A program made the position numbers and the translations under genes. The notes beneath the pieces were generated by a model. The model did not search any database, was not told the DNA's origin, and saw nothing but the letters and a program-made list of their open reading frames with translations. Below, piece by piece: positions 1-38,070 of a DNA stretch of 45,225 bases. Where the stretch lies: IMG/VR virus record IMGVR_UViG_3300032018_000008, positions 1 through 45,225 of that record. The stretch is one strand, 5' to 3'. Position 1 is the stretch's first letter; every line of letters begins with the position of its first letter. This DNA comes from a virus.

Positions 1-3000
1 CACTTGTGCTTCTATCGTAGGCCTGTGGCGATGGGGCGGTGATTACTCCACTAAACGCACCTGTTGTGGCCGATATCGCTGCTAATGTTGATGCTCCTGA
101 TATAGATAACCCACCAGTTACTGAAAGACTACCTGTATGAACAGCATTAGTACCATCGTGTTGGTATTTAATAACTCCTGTACCGTTAGCAAGAATAATA
201 TTGTTAGTTAGCCCTGCTGCAAGTGCTGTTACGTTTGCACCAATAATTGTGTTTCCATTACCTGAGACAATACCTCGACCTGTATTATATCCAAACAGTG
301 TATTATTGTCTGTTACAAGTCCAACAGTACCTGTACCTGTACCTGCACCATTTGCTGTGAACTGAAGACCTAGTGTGTTAGACGCTGCACCGTATGTCAT
401 AAAGTTTGTAGTGCCTAACGTACTGATGCGATAAACAGTACCATTCACCATCGATGTAGCTGTTATAGATGGGTTTAGGTCATAACCAGCATATATTCCA
501 AAGAATGAGTTTTGATATCCAGTAGTATTACTAAAACCAGCCTGCAATCCATGGAATGAGTTGCCAATGCCAATAGTATTACTATAACCAGCACTCAATC
601 CATTGAATGAGTTGTTATACCCAGTAGTATTACTAAAACCAGCCTGCATCCCATAGAATGAGTTTTGATATCCAGTAGTATTATAATAACCAGACTGATA
701 CCCATTGAATGAGTTGTATGAACCAGTAGTATTATAATAACCAGCCTGCCCCCCAAAGAATGAGTTGTTAATTCCAGTAGTATTACTATAACCAGCCACA
801 GTCCCATTGAATGAGTTGTTGAAGCCAGTAGTATTACTAAACCCAGCATTCGTTCCATTGAATGAGTTGTTGAAGCCAGTAGTATTACTAAACCCAGCAT
901 TCGTTCCATTGAATGAGTTGTTATACCCAGTAGTATTTAAATAACCAGCCTGAAATCCAAAGAATGAGTTGTATGAACCACTAAATGCATTTACCCCATC
1001 ATACGCGACTAGTTGTCCGCCGCTACCTATGAACAGGTTGTTACCGGTAGTAGACGCAGCAAATTTAGACGACATAAGCCTAAGTTGAGATTCACCGAAT
1101 GAGACTGTTCCTGTAACAGTAATCCCTCCTGTATGAACAGCATTAGTACCATCATGCTGGTATTTAATAGCTCCTGTACCGTTAGCAAGAATGATATTGT
1201 TAGTTAGTCCTGCTGCAAGTCCTGTTACGTTTGCACCAATAATTGTGTTTCCATTACCAGATATAATACCGCGACCTGTGTTATATCCAAACATTGTATT
1301 ATTGTCTGTTACAAGTCCCACTGTGCCTGTACCTGTACCTGCACCATTTGCTGTGAACTGAAGACCTAGTGTATTAGATACAGCACCGTATGTTACGAAG
1401 TTTGTAGTACCTAGCGTACTGATGCGATAAACAGTACCATTCACCATCGATGTTGCTGCTATAGATGGGTTTAGGTCATAACCAGCATATATTCCAAAGA
1501 ATGAGTTTTGAGACCCAGTAGTATTACTATAACCAGCCTGCATCCCATAGAATGAGTTTTGATATCCAGTAGTATTACTAAAACCAGCATTCCATCCAAA
1601 GAATGAGTTGTAATACCCAGTAGTATTAAAATAACCAGCCTGAAATCCATTGAATGAGTTGTTTGACCCAGTAGTATTACTATAACCAGCACTCATTCCA
1701 AAGAATGAGTTTTGAGACCCAGTAGTATTTAAATAACCAGCACTCGATCCAAAGAATGCGTTGTTTGTCCCAGTAGTATTACTATAACCAGAATTCAATC
1801 CAAAGAATGAGTTTTGATATCCAGTAGTATTAAAATAACCAGACTGAAATCCATTGAATGAGTTGTTATACCCAGTAGTATTACTAACACCAGCATTCCA
1901 TCCAAAGAATGAGTTGTAATACCCAGTAGTATTACTATAACCAGCACTCGTTCCAAAGAATGAGTTTTGAGACCCAGTAGTATTATAATAACCAGCCCCA
2001 GTCCCATTGAATGAGTTTTGATACCCAGTAGTATTACTATAACCAGCATTCATTCCAAAGAATGAGTTGCTATAGCCAGTAGTATTTAAATAACCAGCCT
2101 GATATCCATTGAATGAGTTGTTATAGCCAGTAGTATTAAAATAACCAGCATTCGCCCCATAGAATGAGTTGTATGATCCACTATATGCATTTACCCCATC
2201 ATACGCGACTAGTTGTCCGCCACTACCTATGAACAGGTTGTTACCTGTAGTAGATGCAGCAAATTTAGACGACATCAACCTAATTTGAGATTCGCCGAAT
2301 GAGACTGTGCCTGTTACAGAAAGTCCACCTGTATGAACAGCATTAGTACCATCGTGTTGGTATTTAATAGCTCCTGTACCGTTAGCAAGAATAATATTGT
2401 TAGTTAATGCTGCTGCAAGTCCTGTTACGTTTGCACCAACAATTGTGTTTCCATTACCAGATATAATACCTCGACCTGTATTATATCCAAACATTGTGTT
2501 ATTGTCTGTTACAAGTCCAACAGTACCTGTACCTGTACCTGCACCAGTTGCTGTGAACTGAAGACCTAGTGTATTAGATACAGCACCGTATGTTACGAAG
2601 TTTGTAGTACCTAGCGTACTGATGCGATAAACAGTACCGTTCACCATCGATGTTGCTGCTATAGATGGGTTTAGGTCATAACCAGCATTCATTCCAAAGA
2701 ATGAGTTTTGATTCCCAGTAGTATTACTAAAACCAGCCTGCAATCCATGGAATGAGTTTTGATATCCAGTAGTATTACTATAACCAGCACTCAATCCATT
2801 GAATGAGTTGTTGAAGCCAGTAGTATTACTAAAACCAGAATTCAATCCAAAGAATGAGTTGTTAATTCCAGTAGTATTTAAATAACCAGCCTGAAATCCA
2901 TTGAATGAGTTTTGATATCCAGTAGTATTTAAATAACCAGCATTCACTCCATAGAATGAGTTGGTATACCCAGTAGTATTACTATAACCAGAATTCAATC

Positions 3001-4786
3001 CAAAGAATGAGTTTTGATATCCAGTAGTATTACTAAAACCAGCATATATTCCAAAGAATGAGTTTTGATATCCAGTAGTATTAAAATAACCAGCCTGAAA
3101 TCCATTGAATGAGTTGTTAAAGCCAGTAGTGTTACTAAAACCAGCCTGCACCCCATAGAATGAGTTGTATGATCCACTATATGCATTTACCCCATCATAC
3201 GCGACTAGTTGTCCGCCGCCACCTATGAATAGGTTGTTACCGACAGTAGACGCAGCAAATTTAGACGACATCAACCTAAGTTGAGATTCACCGAATGAGA
3301 CTGTTCCTGTTATACTGAGACCTAAAGGAGTGATGCTTAATGGTGTTATTTGTGCTCCGGTACCATTCATGTATTGAAGCTGAAAGGAATCGGTTACATT
3401 ATATAGTGTTTTTGTGACCATTCCAGACAATGACCATGCGCTAATAGAGGTATCGTCTCTAGTTAATGCTCTATTGTATTGTGTTGTTTCATTAGCATTA
3501 ACACCAAACCCACATTTAAAACCATTAACATCATCTACAAAAGAGAAAAGATTTACTCTTCCTGTTGTTGTGCTAACGGAAGAAACTGTTAGTTTATTGT
3601 TATTTGCTGTTGTACTGAATGCATTTACGTTACCATTAACTATTAATCCAGTAGTAGATAGTCTTGCTTTAAGTGATACCCCACCATCGGTAGAAAAAGA
3701 TATACCACCGTTACCTGACCTAACGATCATATCGTATGCAGATGAGCCTGTTATGACTGCTCCACCAATAGAAGAATCGACACCGATATAGGTATTATTT
3801 CCGGTATTATTAACTAATATAAGGTTTTGGGCAGTCGTTGTTCCACCAACTGATATTGATGTTGATGGAACACCAGCAGAACCGTTAACGCCAATACCAC
3901 CAGATCCTACTGTCAGACTAGATAAAGATGCAGTTGATAGCGTTATATTTTTATTCGAAATAGTTTCTGCACCAACCAAGGTAGCAAGAGTACCAGTTGT
4001 TGGTAAAATAAGAGCTGTAGGTGCTGTTGCGGTAAATGACTGAGAAAATGCTCCAAGATGGGATATGTTTCCAGCTAGTGTAAGAGTATTAGCACCATTA
4101 TTGACCCCAGTACCACCAAAGGTAGCACTAATGATACCGGCAGACCAAGTACCAACAGTAACATTACCAACGGAATTTAATGAAGATGATAAAACCGATG
4201 CCCCAAGAGTTGTAGAAGACAGGACGGATGTCCCATTAATTGAAAAAAGTTTACCTGAAGCGATATTAATATTTTCGGAAGAAGTCCAACCATTAGCAGG
4301 AGTCCACAAAATACTTTTATCTGTTGTTCCTTTTAATATAACTCCGCCATTAGTAGCAGCAATATCACTATTAGAGAAATATATGGTTGTTGATGCTACT
4401 GTTTGTGTTGGGGTTATGACCCAGGAATTAGCTGATCCAGAGACCACAGTTGTACCTGGTGTTACACCAACACCAGTTACAAATTGTCCAACAGCGATGC
4501 CTGTAGTAGTACCAGCAGATATAGTTAAAGTAGTGCCTGCAATAGCACCAGTAACCGATGCCATGACACCTAAAAGAGATTGTGTCGATACGTTGGTGGT
4601 TGCTCCTGTATTTGTGATACCACCTGAAACTACTAACGTACCAGTAACGTTAACATTACCTGAAAATACACCAGAACCAGCAGATATCGAAGGTATATTC
4701 GACATTGCACCGAGATTATCTATGATATTTAGTGGTGTTGTACCTACTGATATACCGTTTCTTGCGTTAAACTGTATTCCTGCCAT
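1..4786 (-). CDS. Giant repeat-rich tail fibre protein, 3' end outside window
   Basis: An open frame of 1595 codons runs from ATG at 4786 to the left edge without a stop that I could find. The N-terminal part (MAGIQFNARNG...) is rich in G, S, T and V, like phage fibre shafts. From about residue 530 onward it carries three arrays of a 17-residue unit of the form NTTGxxNSFxGxxAGxx. Conserved linkers of about 165 residues separate the arrays. The last visible residues (ITAPSPQAYDRSTS) match the common fibre motif that leads into an ATTAFV-type segment, so more protein lies off the window. The unit resembles beta-roll repeats of fibres and trimeric adhesins. The likely role is host-surface contact. 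A late promoter motif and a G-rich stretch (AGGGGATAGGGA) precede the start. Length and receptor are unknown. Confidence 0.85.
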   Translation of the reverse strand, partial: MAGIQFNARNGISVGTTPLNIIDNLGAMSNIPSISAGSGVFSGNVNVTGTLVVSGGITNTGATTNVSTQSLLGVMASVTGAIAGTTLTISAGTTTGIAVGQFVTGVGVTPGTTVVSGSANSWVITPTQTVASTTIYFSNSDIAATNGGVILKGTTDKSILWTPANGWTSSENINIASGKLFSINGTSVLSSTTLGASVLSSSLNSVGNVTVGTWSAGIISATFGGTGVNNGANTLTLAGNISHLGAFSQSFTATAPTALILPTTGTLATLVGAETISNKNITLSTASLSSLTVGSGGIGVNGSAGVPSTSISVGGTTTAQNLILVNNTGNNTYIGVDSSIGGAVITGSSAYDMIVRSGNGGISFSTDGGVSLKARLSTTGLIVNGNVNAFSTTANNNKLTVSSVSTTTGRVNLFSFVDDVNGFKCGFGVNANETTQYNRALTRDDTSISAWSLSGMVTKTLYNVTDSFQLQYMNGTGAQITPLSITPLGLSITGTVSFGESQLRLMSSKFAASTVGNNLFIGGGGQLVAYDGVNAYSGSYNSFYGVQAGFSNTTGFNNSFNGFQAGYFNTTGYQNSFFGIYAGFSNTTGYQNSFFGLNSGYSNTTGYTNSFYGVNAGYLNTTGYQNSFNGFQAGYLNTTGINNSFFGLNSGFSNTTGFNNSFNGLSAGYSNTTGYQNSFHGLQAGFSNTTGNQNSFFGMNAGYDLNPSIAATSMVNGTVYRISTLGTTNFVTYGAVSNTLGLQFTATGAGTGTGTVGLVTDNNTMFGYNTGRGIISGNGNTIVGANVTGLAAALTNNIILANGTGAIKYQHDGTNAVHTGGLSVTGTVSFGESQIRLMSSKFAASTTGNNLFIGSGGQLVAYDGVNAYSGSYNSFYGANAGYFNTTGYNNSFNGYQAGYLNTTGYSNSFFGMNAGYSNTTGYQNSFNGTGAGYYNTTGSQNSFFGTSAGYSNTTGYYNSFFGWNAGVSNTTGYNNSFNGFQSGYFNTTGYQNSFFGLNSGYSNTTGTNNAFFGSSAGYLNTTGSQNSFFGMSAGYSNTTGSNNSFNGFQAGYFNTTGYYNSFFGWNAGFSNTTGYQNSFYGMQAGYSNTTGSQNSFFGIYAGYDLNPSIAATSMVNGTVYRISTLGTTNFVTYGAVSNTLGLQFTANGAGTGTGTVGLVTDNNTMFGYNTGRGIISGNGNTIIGANVTGLAAGLTNNIILANGTGAIKYQHDGTNAVHTGGITVTGTVSFGESQLRLMSSKFAASTTGNNLFIGSGGQLVAYDGVNAFSGSYNSFFGFQAGYLNTTGYNNSFNGTNAGFSNTTGFNNSFNGTNAGFSNTTGFNNSFNGTVAGYSNTTGINNSFFGGQAGYYNTTGSYNSFNGYQSGYYNTTGYQNSFYGMQAGFSNTTGYNNSFNGLSAGYSNTIGIGNSFHGLQAGFSNTTGYQNSFFGIYAGYDLNPSITATSMVNGTVYRISTLGTTNFMTYGAASNTLGLQFTANGAGTGTGTVGLVTDNNTLFGYNTGRGIVSGNGNTIIGANVTALAAGLTNNIILANGTGVIKYQHDGTNAVHTGSLSVTGGLSISGASTLAAISATTGAFSGVITAPSPQAYDRSTS
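490..986 (-). repeat. 51-bp tandem repeat array A, 9 units
   Basis: The sequence ccaRtagtatt (NTTG on the minus strand) recurs every 51 bp at 519, 570, 621, 672, 723, 774, 825, 876 and 927. A degenerate unit at 978 encodes SGSYNSF. Each unit encodes 17 residues. The NTTG, NSF, G and AG positions are constant. The two residues after NTTG and the residues around the inner G vary within a small set. Confidence 0.93.
1486..2186 (-). repeat. 51-bp tandem repeat array B, 13 units
   Basis: Thirteen units in perfect 51-bp register have anchors from 1515 to 2127, with a degenerate terminal unit at 2178. The unit and constant residues are as in array A, with four more copies. Confidence 0.93.
2686..3182 (-). 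repeat. 51-bp tandem repeat array C, 9 units
   Basis: Nine units have anchors from 2715 to 3123, with the degenerate terminal unit at 3174. The copy number equals that of array A. Confidence 0.93.
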
Positions 4787-6535: not shown

Positions 6536-6735
6536 TACTGATTAACCTTTTGAAGTATTAATTCGAGCATATCTTTAATATTAGATACGTCTTTTTCTAT
6601 ATTATTTATTCGTTCCTTTTCTTGGAGATCATTGATTGCTTTTGCTTTCAATCTTGTATATTCATCTCCTTTATCCGTATTAGTAAACACACCACGGCTA
6701 ATTGCATTGATACCTTGTATGTCTGTCTTATACAT
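6535..6735 (-). CDS. Small coiled-coil protein (66 aa), unknown role
   Basis: The N-terminal half is polar. Residues 28-66 (from about [20 protein letters not shown] to [10 protein letters not shown]) have a heptad pattern of I, L and V expected of a coiled coil. The gene overlaps the upstream structural gene by 8 nt and the next gene by the TAATG junction, so it belongs to the virion operon. Small proteins of this kind sit between structural genes in marine T4-like phages. It may be an oligomerising virion component. I recognise no known function. Confidence 0.6.
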
Positions 6736-8731
6736 GGCTAATAATTCTTAGATTTTTCATACGTGGAGTTACTGCTTTGTTGGTGCTCAAGAAAACAAAT
6801 TTGAATTGGAACTCATCGAAACTTTGAAGTCCAGTGATGATGTATTCATAATCGATAAACTCTTCATTTGTCGGTGATTTCTTGTATGTAATCGGGTAGT
6901 TAGTCCATACAGTATCTGAAAGTTTAGTTGAGGATGATTTAACTGCTGTTCTATAATACATTTGGACTTCAGCATCAGGTTTAACATTTAATGAAACCAT
7001 AACTCTAAATGAATAATTAGGAGTTGTGAGCAGAACTGGTAATGTGATGTGTTTGCTTTCAGATGAACCGCCATTGAATGTTTCTGACATGAACATTGTA
7101 TACTGTGTCAATATTGCGCTTCTAGTTGCTGAATCGATCAATGTTGGGCCAGTTAATTTTATAATATTGTTTATTGGATCGACTGATGATATATACCCAG
7201 CCAATCCATTATTTCCTTGAACAGCCGATATGGTAGTTGAAGGTACCAATTGAGAAGATGAAATAGTATATGTACCTGCTGCTCCTGTTGTACCTGTCAA
7301 TTGTGAAAGAATTTTAGTGCCTGTTAAAATACCTGTACCAGAAATTATTTGTCCTCTATTTAAAGAACCAGATGTCACAGATGTAACAGTAAGAGTAGTA
7401 TTAGCGACACCTGTACCATTTACAGTACCAACATATCCTGTTACTACTGCTGGGTTATTGTCAGATATAACACACCAAGCGCCCAATTGAATTTTCGTAT
7501 AATCGGTTGTAGCTGGTACTGTTATTGAATTAGACACCGAATCGAATGACATATTTGCGACCCCTGTAGAGATAGCAACTCCATCCAAATCGACATCAAT
7601 ATCCGCTGATGATGGATTATTAATACGATTTCCGTATAATTGAACAGTCAATCTATCCAGATTTATTGCAGGAGAAATAGCATCATTTAGTGAACTTAGG
7701 ACACCATTAAGAGTAAATGAGTTTGCTCCTGATAATTTAGCTTTTCTATTGACCGAATTATGTACATATTTCATTCCACCTAATTCTTGGATAATTCCAG
7801 GATAAAGTGTATTTGGTGAGACATCTATTGCGGTATCTGATGCGGATTTAAGAGAAAGTTGTAGTCCTGCATCTCTCCCAGTTTTGTGGTGTGGTATACT
7901 GATAGCACTATACCTCACTACTTTTTCTGTCATGACCTTTGCACCACCAACGAAATTTGATGCTGTTTGGTTGGCAGCGGTGATAACATAGTAATCCGAA
8001 TTGATAACACTTAATACAGTAAATGTGCCATTAAATTGAGTATCTGATGAATTGGTATAACTAACTAACATATTAGCAGCCATACCATGATTAGGCTGGT
8101 GTACTTTAACTTTAGTTTTACCTGTAACCGTCATGAATGGGTTTGGTGGCAATTGTTGAAATGTAGAAGAAGGAGCCTCTACCAGATTTACTTTACCAGG
8201 AGCTAAGATATTAAACAGGGCGCGATTAATATTAAATGTCAAATCTTGTGTTTGTTCTGGTGTCCACGTTGAACTATTTTGCGATTTAAACAACGATCCT
8301 AATGCTGGTTGTTGTGAAATTAGGATAGCAGGATTATCTATTTTTGGTTTTCCCATAACCGCAGTCCACAAACTATATCCTTTTGTGGTTAGGGGTAGAT
8401 TGGCAGATGAAGAAGAATTCGATTTAACTAATATTGCATATTCTGTTCCTGGTTGAAGCATAATCGGGACAGGGAACGAAAATTTAGTTGCTACTAAACC
8501 TAGAGAATTTGCTGTTATATTTTCTGGTTGTAGAACACTACTTGCTCTTGGTAATTGATTTTCGGTTGGATATCCGTTCAAAACTTCCACTAGTTGTACT
8601 TGGACAGGATTAACTTCTGTTGGCGATTTATACGAAAAGAATAAATCAACAGAAGTAATAAAACATCCTTGTGTCAAAGAGGGTAATACTGTAAATGTTT
8701 CTGCTATTGCGCCTGAAATTGGGATTGCCAT
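6728..8731 (-). CDS. Large virion structural protein (667 aa)
   Basis: The protein begins [19 protein letters not shown]. An early segment, [20 protein letters not shown], followed by [19 protein letters not shown], is found in virion proteins of T4-like phages, often within one long protein that starts with a DUF4815 domain. The C-terminal half is beta-rich and ends in a compact region with [19 protein letters not shown]. An AGGA ribosome site lies 8 nt before the ATG. It follows the 319-aa and 1409-aa genes with gaps of 9 and 6 nt. The three may be pieces of what is one polypeptide elsewhere. A peripheral baseplate or adsorption structure is likely, but no specific role can be assigned. Confidence 0.65.
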
Positions 8732-8740
8732 TTTTATATC

Positions 8741-9700
8741 CTAGTAATTAAAATAAGGATTTTGTCCTAATGTACCGCTAACGAGGTTATTTGTTGTATT
8801 AGTTATCGTTGTTACTGTTTGTTGTTGATTCATTATATTAGTTGTATTATCGAATTCCGCTCCATTGGAATTATATTTTGTAGCAGCAAAAGTTTTAGCA
8901 GATAATGGATCTGAAGAAACAGAATCGCTTATTAGGATTGTATTATTTCCTGCCGGGAATGAGTGATGTGGTATGGATATAGTGCCATAGATATTACCAA
9001 GAGAATTGGTATCTTTTCCACCATGAGAAACACTAATAACTGTGCTTAAAATTTGTGATGTTAGACCTTTTATGGTATTTCCCGCTATTATAGTAGGATT
9101 GAATCCTGCCATACCTTGAAACCAATCCTTAATAGCAGTTAACCACCCAGATAAGGAAGAATAATTTGTAACTGGTTCTTTATAATTAGCAACATATAAA
9201 AACCTTCTATTTGCATTCGTTGTTTTATCAGATACAGTTTCATCTGCTATTACTATTGCTGATGCTCCTGATGTTATAGATGTCGGGTATCCTTGAAGCA
9301 TACTGACAGCACCAGTAGACCATGTCATATTTTGATCTGCCCATACTGCTGGCCCAGTGCTGACATTTTGAACGGTTATTATCTCACCAACCATTATATT
9401 ATCATGTGTTCCCAGTGGAGTTGCTCTATATACAAGATTATCTGTTTGTTGACCAGATTCACAACCGGTATATTTACCTGGAGTATTAACTGCAATTTCT
9501 AATCGAAGACATGGGGTAAATAACCCATTTATATTTTGGGTATTAAGATAAAAGTTCATTGTTGTATTGGGTTGTAATTTCTTCCCAGATACCACTAATG
9601 TTCTTGACCTCATTGTACCTTGCTGAAACTGTACCTGTGTTTTAAAGCTGGCCAGTTGTTTAGTTGTAGTATTTGATGATGTAGTTGTAGTTGTTACCAT
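8741..9700 (-). CDS. Virion structural protein (319 aa), DUF4815-neighbour type
   Basis: A Thr-rich start (MVTTTTTSSNTTT) leads into a segment with FQQGTMRSRTLVVSGKKLQP, NTTMNFYLN. That pattern, two Arg before a strand and then 'LxPNTxMxFYL', occurs in the middle of long DUF4815 virion proteins of related phages. The centre holds GWLTAIKDWFQGMAGF, and the C-terminus is Asn/Thr rich. No strong ribosome site precedes the ATG, which starts 6 nt after the upstream stop, so it probably depends on coupling. Its exact location in the virion is unknown. Confidence 0.6.
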   Translation of the reverse strand: MVTTTTTSSNTTTKQLASFKTQVQFQQGTMRSRTLVVSGKKLQPNTTMNFYLNTQNINGLFTPCLRLEIAVNTPGKYTGCESGQQTDNLVYRATPLGTHDNIMVGEIITVQNVSTGPAVWADQNMTWSTGAVSMLQGYPTSITSGASAIVIADETVSDKTTNANRRFLYVANYKEPVTNYSSLSGWLTAIKDWFQGMAGFNPTIIAGNTIKGLTSQILSTVISVSHGGKDTNSLGNIYGTISIPHHSFPAGNNTILISDSVSSDPLSAKTFAATKYNSNGAEFDNTTNIMNQQQTVTTITNTTNNLVSGTLGQNPYFNY

Positions 9701-33723: not shown

Positions 33724-34164
33724 ATGAAGTATCTTCAAGGGACATTTGTGCCAGCCAATCCAAGTAAGTATTCTGGTGATGTGACTAAAATTTATTTTCG
33801 AAGTTCTTGGGAAAAGAAGGCCATGGTTTTTTTTGATAATAATCCAAGCATACTTAAATGGTCATCAGAGGAAGTGATAGTACCTTACATAAGTCCAATA
33901 GATGGAAAACAACACCGATATTTCCCGGATTTTTTGATAATGGTTAAAACGATTGATGGCACCATAAATAGAATAATGGTAGAGATAAAACCAGCTATAC
34001 AATGCTCTCCACCCAAGCAAGGAAAAAAGACAAAACGAATGATAACCGAAATGCATACATTTATGGTAAATCAAGCTAAATGGATAGCAGCAAAATCATG
34101 GTGTGATAGAAACAATATGAAATTTCAGATTATCACGGAAAAAGAATTGGGTATCAAGAAATGA
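33724..34164 (+). CDS. 4: Head completion nuclease, gp4-like
   Basis: The 146-residue protein matches T4 gp4 (150) along its length. It has NPSKYSGDVTKIYFRSSWEK, NPSILKWSSEEVIVPYISP, HRYFPDFLIM and IMVEIKP. The PDF and ExK residues in the last two form a PD-(D/E)XK-type nuclease core. gp4 acts on filled heads before tail joining. The ATG is set by the divergent promoter. The stop overlaps the next start (ATGA). Confidence 0.88.
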   Translation: MKYLQGTFVPANPSKYSGDVTKIYFRSSWEKKAMVFFDNNPSILKWSSEEVIVPYISPIDGKQHRYFPDFLIMVKTIDGTINRIMVEIKPAIQCSPPKQGKKTKRMITEMHTFMVNQAKWIAAKSWCDRNNMKFQIITEKELGIKK

Positions 34165-35567: not shown

Positions 35568-36254
35568 ATGATAGTAGAGTTGAAATTACCAAAATATAAA
35601 GTGACATTACCAATATCGGGTATCTCTGTCGAATTTAGGCCATTTACGGTAAAAGAAGAAAAAATTCTTCTATTAGCCAAAGAGGAAAATGATGTGGCGG
35701 ATGTTATACGGTCAATTGGCCAAATTATATCCAATTGTACTTTTGGTAAATGCGATATAGAGACATTAAAAAAAGTAGACGCGGAATATCTATTCATCCA
35801 AATAAGAAACAAATCTATGGGTGAAGGAGTAGACATTACTGCAACATGCAAAGAATGTTCTGCTAAGACTGAAATGACTATAAATTTCGATAACATTAGA
35901 GTAAAAAATATCGACAAAGTAGAAAACAAACCTATCCAGATAACAGAGGATGTATGGATTACTGTTACATATCCATCTATAAAAGAATCAATGTCGCTTC
36001 CAGAAAATGATGGTATATCTGCCTTAGCGTTAGCATTGGATACAATTATCGAAGGAGAGGATGAAAAGAAAGCTTCTGACTACACCATGGCAGAAAGGGT
36101 TGAGTTAATTGAATCTTTTACCAGTGAACAATTGAATCTATTTAAGCCATTCCTTGATGGTTTCCCTACTCTTATTCTTGATATAGTATTCACTTGTAAA
36201 TGTGGATATAAGAATGAGATTGCAATTGAGGGTATTGAAAGTTTTTTCGTATAG
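35568..36254 (+). CDS. 26: gp26-like baseplate hub chaperone
   Basis: The 228-residue protein matches the T4 gp26 family (T4_baseplate, PF12322). It has YKVTLPISGISVEFRPFTVK, EEKILLLAKE and two CxxC-type pairs (CKEC near residue 98, CKCG near 217) that could form a zinc site. Such proteins assist hub assembly and are not expected in the mature tail. GGAGAT precedes the ATG by 7 nt. Its end carries a frameshift signal leading into a second frame, so both this form and a longer form are expected. The tape-measure-like gene follows, as for tail chaperones in general. Confidence 0.83.
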   Translation: MIVELKLPKYKVTLPISGISVEFRPFTVKEEKILLLAKEENDVADVIRSIGQIISNCTFGKCDIETLKKVDAEYLFIQIRNKSMGEGVDITATCKECSAKTEMTINFDNIRVKNIDKVENKPIQITEDVWITVTYPSIKESMSLPENDGISALALALDTIIEGEDEKKASDYTMAERVELIESFTSEQLNLFKPFLDGFPTLILDIVFTCKCGYKNEIAIEGIESFFV

Positions 36255-36273
36255 GCCTCTCAGAAGAGGGGCT
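36242..36273 (+). promoter_or_regulatory. Programmed -1 ribosomal frameshift signal
   Basis: The heptamer T-TTT-TTC at 36242-36248 is in the X-XXY-YYZ register of the gp26-like frame. Five nt later an 8-bp stem, 36254-36261 with 36266-36273 around an AGAA loop, contains two G-U pairs. The zero-frame stop TAG (36252-36254) lies between slip site and stem. Confidence 0.8.
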
Positions 36274-36415
36274 TTCTGATTACTTTAGAACAAATTTCAA
36301 TTTGATGTATCACCATAATTACTCATTAACGGAATTAGAAGATATGCTCCCGTATGAACGAAGCATATACATTGGATTGCTTGAATTGCACTTAGAGAAA
36401 GAAAAACAAAAATGA
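36248..36415 (+). CDS. Frameshift extension of the gp26-like chaperone (gp51/T-like segment)
   Basis: In the -1 frame after the slip site 55 codons stay open to TGA at 36413-36415, which overlaps the next ATG. The segment reads LSEEGLSDYFRTNFN, then YHHNYSLTELEDMLPYERSI, YIGLLELHLEKE. This 'YHxxxSLxELxxMxxxExxxYxxLLxxxxxKE' pattern is that of the second half of tail assembly chaperones (lambda GT type). The fused product would have 282 residues. An internal ATG at 36305 has no ribosome site, so frameshifting is the better explanation. Confidence 0.75.
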   Translation, partial: RIGLSEEGLSDYFRTNFNLMYHHNYSLTELEDMLPYERSIYIGLLELHLEKEKQK

Positions 36416-38070
36416 GCATTTTGTCGGACATAAACAAGAAGATTATATCGAAAGAAAAAGATAAAATCGTAGAGGCTATTTTTCAAGTAGCCTCACATCT
36501 TGTCACTAAGGCAATGGCAAATCTACCTTTAAGTCAAGAAGATTATGATATTGCTTTCGATAGAGAAGTTAAGGCATTAGTTGTAGAATTTAAAATATTA
36601 CTATCAAGAAATGACCATTCATTTGACAAATATGTCGATGAATATATTGACGATTTGAGAAATAATAACGTAGAATCCCCAAAGAATAGAATTTCTAAAG
36701 AAACACTCAGACAATTGGGGGTCGAAACAGAAAAAGGAAAGATAACTGCCCGAGCAGCAACACACATGGCGAGCCGTCTAGGTAAAGCATCGAGCAAAGT
36801 ATCATTTTCTGATTTTGGTATAAAGATAAGCCCAAAAACAGAAAATGAAACGAAAATACCAACTAGCACCATTGGTAAAGCATTCTCAGTCTTTTCTAAA
36901 AAGATATTCGACCCAAACATAGACAAAACATCATCAACGTTTGGGTCAGCACAAAAATTAGATAGGGGAGCATTTAATAAGGACGATCAATATCAAAAAG
37001 AAATGTTAATGGTATTGAAACATATAGAAGATAACATTGGTGATGCGACTAAAGAAGAGAAATTGCTAGCCAAAGAAATAAAGAAATTAGCAGGTGTAGA
37101 TGAAATAAAAAGTAAAAGAAAAGAAGCTGAGGAAGAATATAAATCATTAGAAGGAACCAGAGCCAGAATGACTCCTGGAGCCAAAGCAATACTAGATGTC
37201 TCTGTTGGTTTGATTGGATTAAGTAAAAAGGGATTTGGTGCTATTGGTAATAGATTAAAGAAAAAGAAAAATGTAGATACAACCACAAATGAAGAAGAAC
37301 AAATAGACACCACAGCAAATAAAGAACAAATAGAACCGAAATCTGCCAGTGGGGTTTCGTATAAGATGGATCCAAATGATTCAGCATTGGAAGAAGCAAA
37401 TTACGAAGATAAAGTTAAGAATGAGGTGGAATTGGTAGAGTTCCACAAAAAAGAGATAGAACTATTAACGAAGATATCTGAGAAAGAACCAGAAACGAAA
37501 AAGGATGGTGGTATCATGGACGGTATAAAGACCGCCATAACGGCTGCCATATCGGGAGCATTAGGTGCTGGATTAATTGCTATGGGTGGTACTATCGTTG
37601 GTGCTATGAAAACAGGAATGTCTTTTCTCGGTAAAGGGGCTGGAGTATTAGGTGCGGCTGGTGTAGGGTATGAAATCGGTACAAAAGTATACGAGAATTT
37701 AGACGAGGATACTAAAACTAACATAGGTGGTACAATAAACACAATCGCAAATAAGTTTGGATTAGGTGTCGATGAGGATGAAATTAGAGAAACAAATAGA
37801 AAGCATAATGAAGATGCTGCTAGAGTAGCAGCAGCCTACAAGAAAAAAAGAGCGGAAAATTTAGAAGAGAAAACAGCAAAAAATATAGAAAACAAAGAAA
37901 ATAAGGAATCTGAAAAGATGTCCAAAGCTTTGTCTCCTATAATAAGTCAATCATCTAACAATAATGTTAGTGCGCCAGTAATACAACAAATAAAACCAAA
38001 AGATGCCCCTCGAAATCCAGATAGTAGCTTGATGCTATATCTAAATTCGAGGGTAGCAAAGTTCTTTTAA
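36412..38070 (+). CDS. Tape-measure/hub protein candidate, gp29-like position (552 aa)
   Basis: It follows the tail chaperone genes, the usual place of the tape measure (T4 gp29, 590 residues). Residues 1-340 are mostly helical and charged. Residues of about 370-425 are hydrophobic and Gly-rich (AAISGALGAGLIAMGGTIVG), as in many tape measures. A Lys/Glu helix (NKENKESEKMSKAL region) precedes a Ser/Asn-rich end. I see no enzymatic domain. The start overlaps the frameshift-frame stop (ATGA) and lacks a strong ribosome site. The stop overlaps the convergent gp32 stop. It could instead be another hub protein. Confidence 0.55.
   Translation: MSILSDINKKIISKEKDKIVEAIFQVASHLVTKAMANLPLSQEDYDIAFDREVKALVVEFKILLSRNDHSFDKYVDEYIDDLRNNNVESPKNRISKETLRQLGVETEKGKITARAATHMASRLGKASSKVSFSDFGIKISPKTENETKIPTSTIGKAFSVFSKKIFDPNIDKTSSTFGSAQKLDRGAFNKDDQYQKEMLMVLKHIEDNIGDATKEEKLLAKEIKKLAGVDEIKSKRKEAEEEYKSLEGTRARMTPGAKAILDVSVGLIGLSKKGFGAIGNRLKKKKNVDTTTNEEEQIDTTANKEQIEPKSASGVSYKMDPNDSALEEANYEDKVKNEVELVEFHKKEIELLTKISEKEPETKKDGGIMDGIKTAITAAISGALGAGLIAMGGTIVGAMKTGMSFLGKGAGVLGAAGVGYEIGTKVYENLDEDTKTNIGGTINTIANKFGLGVDEDEIRETNRKHNEDAARVAAAYKKKRAENLEEKTAKNIENKENKESEKMSKALSPIISQSSNNNVSAPVIQQIKPKDAPRNPDSSLMLYLNSRVAKFF
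38007..38053. terminator. Long hairpin at the convergent gp29-like/gp32 junction
   Basis: An 8-bp perfect stem (38007-38014 with 38046-38053) is continued by 5-bp and 4-bp stems separated by small bulges, with loop TTGAT. It lies inside the 3' coding end of the rightward gene. On the plus strand TTCTTTT follows 10 nt later. The two stop codons overlap, so there is no other space for a terminator. Confidence 0.45.

Follow-up and report, generated by a model that had tools for sequence, protein, structure and literature searches.

The raw sequence supports lambda-style chaperone frameshifting in an uncultured T4-like virus: a gp26-like gene in the window (the whole 45,225-nucleotide stretch analyzed, from IMG/VR record IMGVR_UViG_3300032018_000008) very probably encodes a tail assembly chaperone that is expressed both as a short form and as a −1 frameshifted long form (probability about 0.92). 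This arrangement is already published for T4-like phages, and the window is an additional case. Most ribosomes would stop at the zero-frame TAG to give the short TAC-N, while at T_TTT_TTC a fraction would move back by one base, both Phe tRNAs then pairing anew with TTT TTT, and would continue for another 55 codons to give TAC-NC, a predicted 282-aa fusion that carries a small T domain. On the model of lambda G/GT, the N part would bind the product of the next gene, the probable tape measure protein, and tail-tube subunits would be recruited by the T domain. The slippage event, its rate, and the chaperone role we infer, whereas the anatomy, conservation, coding constraint, and homology described below derive from sequence.

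Anatomy of the gp26-like gene and its −1 frame

The zero frame of the gp26-like gene ends GAA AGT TTT TTC GTA TAG. The features of the gene and its junction are:

35568..36254, + strand: gp26-like tail assembly chaperone, short form (TAC-N), 228 aa; PF12322, PHROG 150
36228..36232, + strand: Shine-Dalgarno-like GAGGG, possible stimulator, 9 nt upstream of the slip site
36242..36248, + strand: slippery heptamer T_TTT_TTC, X_XXY_YYZ register
36248..36415, + strand: −1 frame, T domain (TAC-C), 55 sense codons (36248-36412) and TGA (36413-36415)
36252..36254, + strand: zero-frame stop codon TAG
36254..36273, + strand: 8-bp hairpin with AGAA loop, possible local stimulator; stem 36254-36261 with 36266-36273
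36412..38070, + strand: probable tape measure protein, 552 aa, named from its position after the chaperone

An earlier note on this DNA had described an in-register T_TTT_TTC at the end of the gp26-like frame, a 5-nt spacer leading to an 8-bp stem with an AGAA loop, and 55 open −1 codons ending on the next ATG; we found each of them in place, the TGA of the −1 frame overlapping the ATG of the next ORF (36412-36414). Of the 53 window ORFs, on either strand, that reach 100 aa, only the gp26-like ORF has a slippery heptamer within its last 15 codons followed by at least 50 open −1 codons.

Domains encoded by the two frames

The gp26-like protein matches PF12322 (T4_baseplate) over residues 8-227 (E 2e-49) and PHROG 150 (E 7e-50), and 722 phage records match it. 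Its AlphaFold model has a mean pLDDT of 90 and Foldseek matches to gp26-type proteins; the hits in a viral structure library were gp26-type proteins together with other phage proteins. Sequence and fold searches of the PDB with the chaperone family gave no significant relative. Because no solved structure matched the family, gene order, homology to T4 gp26 and gp51, and the literature are the basis for the chaperone role.

PHROG 634, named "baseplate hub assembly catalyst" and represented by the short "gp51" of cyanophages, is the family matched by the −1 frame (E 7e-20); the tail-chaperone T pattern noticed earlier in this frame is thus real. The frame also has a weak match to the final part of the PHROG 150 profile, and its domain is conserved in an alignment of 31 sequences (A2). 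In T4 gp51, residues 1-201 match PF12322 (E 4e-52) and residues 147-246 match PHROG 634 (E 1e-23), so that the protein consists of a gp26-like domain and a T domain. When the −1 domain alignment was compared with T4 gp51 by hhalign, residues 200-244 were aligned (probability 65%, pairwise E 6e-5); by these sequence comparisons, the window's T domain is homologous to the gp51 C terminus.

T4-type phages with two chaperone genes

T4 gp26 and gp51 share the N domain family and the C-terminal T domain of the window gene. They differ from it in that T4 has two divergently transcribed genes, a gp51 in which the gp26-like part is fused to T and a gp26 lacking the slip site. The contrast with T4 and its separate genes 26 and 51 had been drawn before; it is right and can now be sharpened: since gp51 of T4 combines a gp26-family domain with a T domain, each chaperone form, short or long, has a gene of its own in T4-type phages. 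In-register T6 is absent from gp26 in ten phages that carry full-length gp51 as a separate gene (T4, JD18, Thanatos, Aeromonas phage 25, Octan, Phi1, PSTRCR_121, Aes508, phiR1-RT, and Miro); the T4 and JD18 proteins keep Phe-Phe, coded TTC TTT. Slip-site phages and two-gene phages offer a clean natural comparison of the ways in which frameshifting and gene duplication can serve the same end. Among the proteins scanned in the 45-kb record, which is a part of the genome, there is only one gp26-family gene.

Conservation of the slip site

A scan of viral contigs yielded 80 loci; isolate genomes were added, and 69 distinct loci were read. Scans seeded with gp26 of Mendera, OLIVR5, ValKK3, and T4 gave few further loci. 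One of the 69 ORFs, from Aeromonas phage 25, is not gp26, and the gp26 of that phage was read separately. An in-register T6 heptamer lies at the end of the gp26 ORF in 62 of the 69 loci, exactly one codon ahead of the stop in 55 of the 62; 36 heptamers are T7, 25 are T6C, and 1 is T6A. Elsewhere in the gp26 ORFs, in-register T6 occurs at 2 of 14,625 codons. From codon usage alone, X-Phe-Phe residues would be expected to be encoded by the heptamer in ~28% of cases; the 62 loci are related and do not represent 62 independent events, and we claim no formal probability.

The T6 heptamer followed by a T-domain frame occurs in cyanophages, in Methylophilales phage Melnitz, and in phages of Stenotrophomonas, Agrobacterium, Aeromonas (Aeh1), Vibrio, and Pseudoalteromonas; the slip site and the −1 domain are both retained by Aeh1 and ValKK3 (both Straboviridae) and by Vibrio phage D480. 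The seven loci without T6 belong to four Straboviridae and three Ackermannviridae phages. In the latter (ECML-4, VP-1, and 3M; loci L094, L095, and L099), the −1 T domain is present and the T runs at the junction are shorter (GAA ATT TTC ATT TAA, CAC GTT TTT CGC TAA, and CAG GTT TTC ATC TGA, respectively), which suggests a different or weaker slip site. The earlier note had looked to an alignment of relatives for slip site, stem, and −1 frame varying together: slip site and −1 frame are indeed conserved together across several phage families, but the stem is not their conserved partner.

Coding constraint and start codons in the −1 frame

Codons of the −1 frame with a single change, counted in 24 independent close pairs, were synonymous in 207 cases and nonsynonymous in 79; the same pairs read in the other two frames gave ratios of 46:272 and 24:280. 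For six pairs whose members lack a start in codons 1-14, the −1 stretch upstream of any start gave 17:5. Judged by these counts, the −1 frame is under purifying selection, including upstream of any possible start codon, and this upstream stretch must therefore be reached from gp26.

The constraint bears on the strongest of the alternatives, in which the T domain is a separate small protein made by reinitiation near the gp26 stop, as annotated ("gp51") in many cyanophage records. Those records do give the T domain its own CDS, and in 31 of the 62 T6-bearing loci ATG, GTG, or TTG is found among −1 codons 1-5, several of these starts overlapping the gp26 stop (TAATG, TGATG). We nevertheless consider reinitiation improbable as the source of the domain: 21 of the 62 loci, including the window, run through 14 codons without a start, and the frame there is nevertheless under purifying selection. 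In the window, −1 codons 1-18 contain no start; the earliest ones, TTG then ATG at codons 19-20, lie inside the conserved domain, and initiation there would remove the conserved N-terminal part. In T4-type phages, moreover, the T domain is fused to a gp26-like part. Since the slip site is kept with or without a start, an early start does not replace the frameshift. A separate start for the second frame had been raised earlier as evidence against frameshifting; an early start is found in half of the T6 relatives, but all of these keep the slip site and the window has no such start. Relatives with an early start may make some free T protein too.

Slippage of RNA polymerase on the T run, which would give mRNAs with an added U that opens the −1 frame, seems less probable still. 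Runs of 6-8 T are present at the site, but the window and 25 of the 62 T6 loci have just six, and bacterial transcriptional slippage usually needs T runs longer than six; in addition, the run is always in the ribosomal slip register. A sequencing or assembly error that split one gene, as the homopolymer at the junction might suggest, is already refuted by the relatives, in that the same arrangement recurs in dozens of independent contigs and in sequenced isolates of several families and relatives usually have one extra zero-frame codon before the stop. Ribosomal −1 frameshifting of the lambda G/GT type, as proposed at the outset, is the reading supported by slip site, register, −1 domain, and gene order.

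Candidate stimulators

The hairpin begins 5 nt after the slip site, and two of its 8 bp are G-U. The 59 nt from 36242 to 36300 fold at −16.4 kcal/mol (z −3.2), with none of 200 shuffles equally stable. Identical stem bases are found only in the nearest relatives (L002 and L006), with no varying pairs; across the 62 loci, the mean folding z is −0.9 and most lack a significant stem, and several lineages have strong stems of other sequence. The stem, which had been taken as part of the device, is not conserved with the slip site and shows no covariation. We rejected the idea that the device generally includes a conserved 3′ hairpin; in the window, the stem would be at most a local stimulator.

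The upstream GAGGG is likewise only a candidate stimulator and unproven. Relatives show a position-specific anti-Shine-Dalgarno peak whose start lies 13-17 nt before the slip site, but a synonymous-codon null is nearly as strong (−5.1 versus −4.4 kcal/mol); the peak is largely explained because the Glu-Gly codons at this site are conserved.

Relation to known systems

As in lambda gpG/gpGT, the putative −1 frameshift is at the end of the gene, just ahead of the probable tape measure gene, and adds a short T domain; unlike in lambda, the N domain is PF12322 and the phage is contractile tailed and T4-like. The lambda slip sequence differs from that of the window. Cyanophage (Kyanoviridae) gp26 and short "gp51" resemble the window in gene order, slip site, and −1 T domain; on the other hand, the records read annotate two separate genes, and protein identity to the window gp26 is at most ~38%.

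The 2022 abstract of Vladimirov, Gautam and Davidson is said to describe frameshifting as conserved in several T4-like groups, with T4 using genes 26 and 51. Passages of PMC10885494 and PMC12846349, citing Vladimirov, Gautam and Davidson 2022 (Virology 566:9-15), state that poly-T slip sites are known in T4-like TAC-N genes and that some T4-like phages have one short and one long fused chaperone gene instead of a frameshift. As far as these passages describe them, such chaperones share with the window a gp26-type TAC-N, a TAC-C in the −1 frame, and a poly-T slip site; the window differs as a further, uncultured member with a 3′ hairpin common to its nearest relatives.

Sullivan et al. 2010 reported that gp51 is lacking from Aeh1 and that in cyanophages it has only ~20% of its length (PMC3037559). 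We found an unannotated −1 T domain after gp26 in Aeh1 (locus L090, 2495-2674), and both reports fit unrecognized −1 extensions of gp26, which is how the short cyanophage "gp51" genes and Aeh1 gp51 would best be read. A speculative and rather doubtful extension is that T4-like phages mix three chaperone modes: frameshift only, as in the window; frameshift plus a start at the stop codon, giving free T; and duplication with fusion. If so, phages of the second mode would make free T protein as an additional product, one that lambda is not known to have.

Gene neighborhood

The gene order of the window (head closure, PHROG 218; DNA end protector, PHROG 429; tail tube-like, PHROG 45; gp26; T; large ORF) resembles that of cyanophages and Melnitz. 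The 552-aa product of the large ORF is probably the tape measure protein. At the same position in some relatives, ORFs match tape-measure PHROGs, with 4 of 10 matching PHROG 1272; the window's 552-aa protein matched no tape-measure PHROG, and no similarity was detected between T4 gp29 and the profile of the downstream ORF. This ORF and the gene for a single-strand binding protein (PHROG 224) converge with a 4-base overlap at 38067-38070.

Elsewhere in the window, positions 1-4000 hold few ORFs of at least 90 aa, and the gp4-like head closure protein (33724-34164) matches the TnsA-like endonuclease domain PF08722 (E 8e-21). On the − strand, at 6728-9700, two adjacent ORFs match different parts of PHROG 358, as if one long protein had been split.
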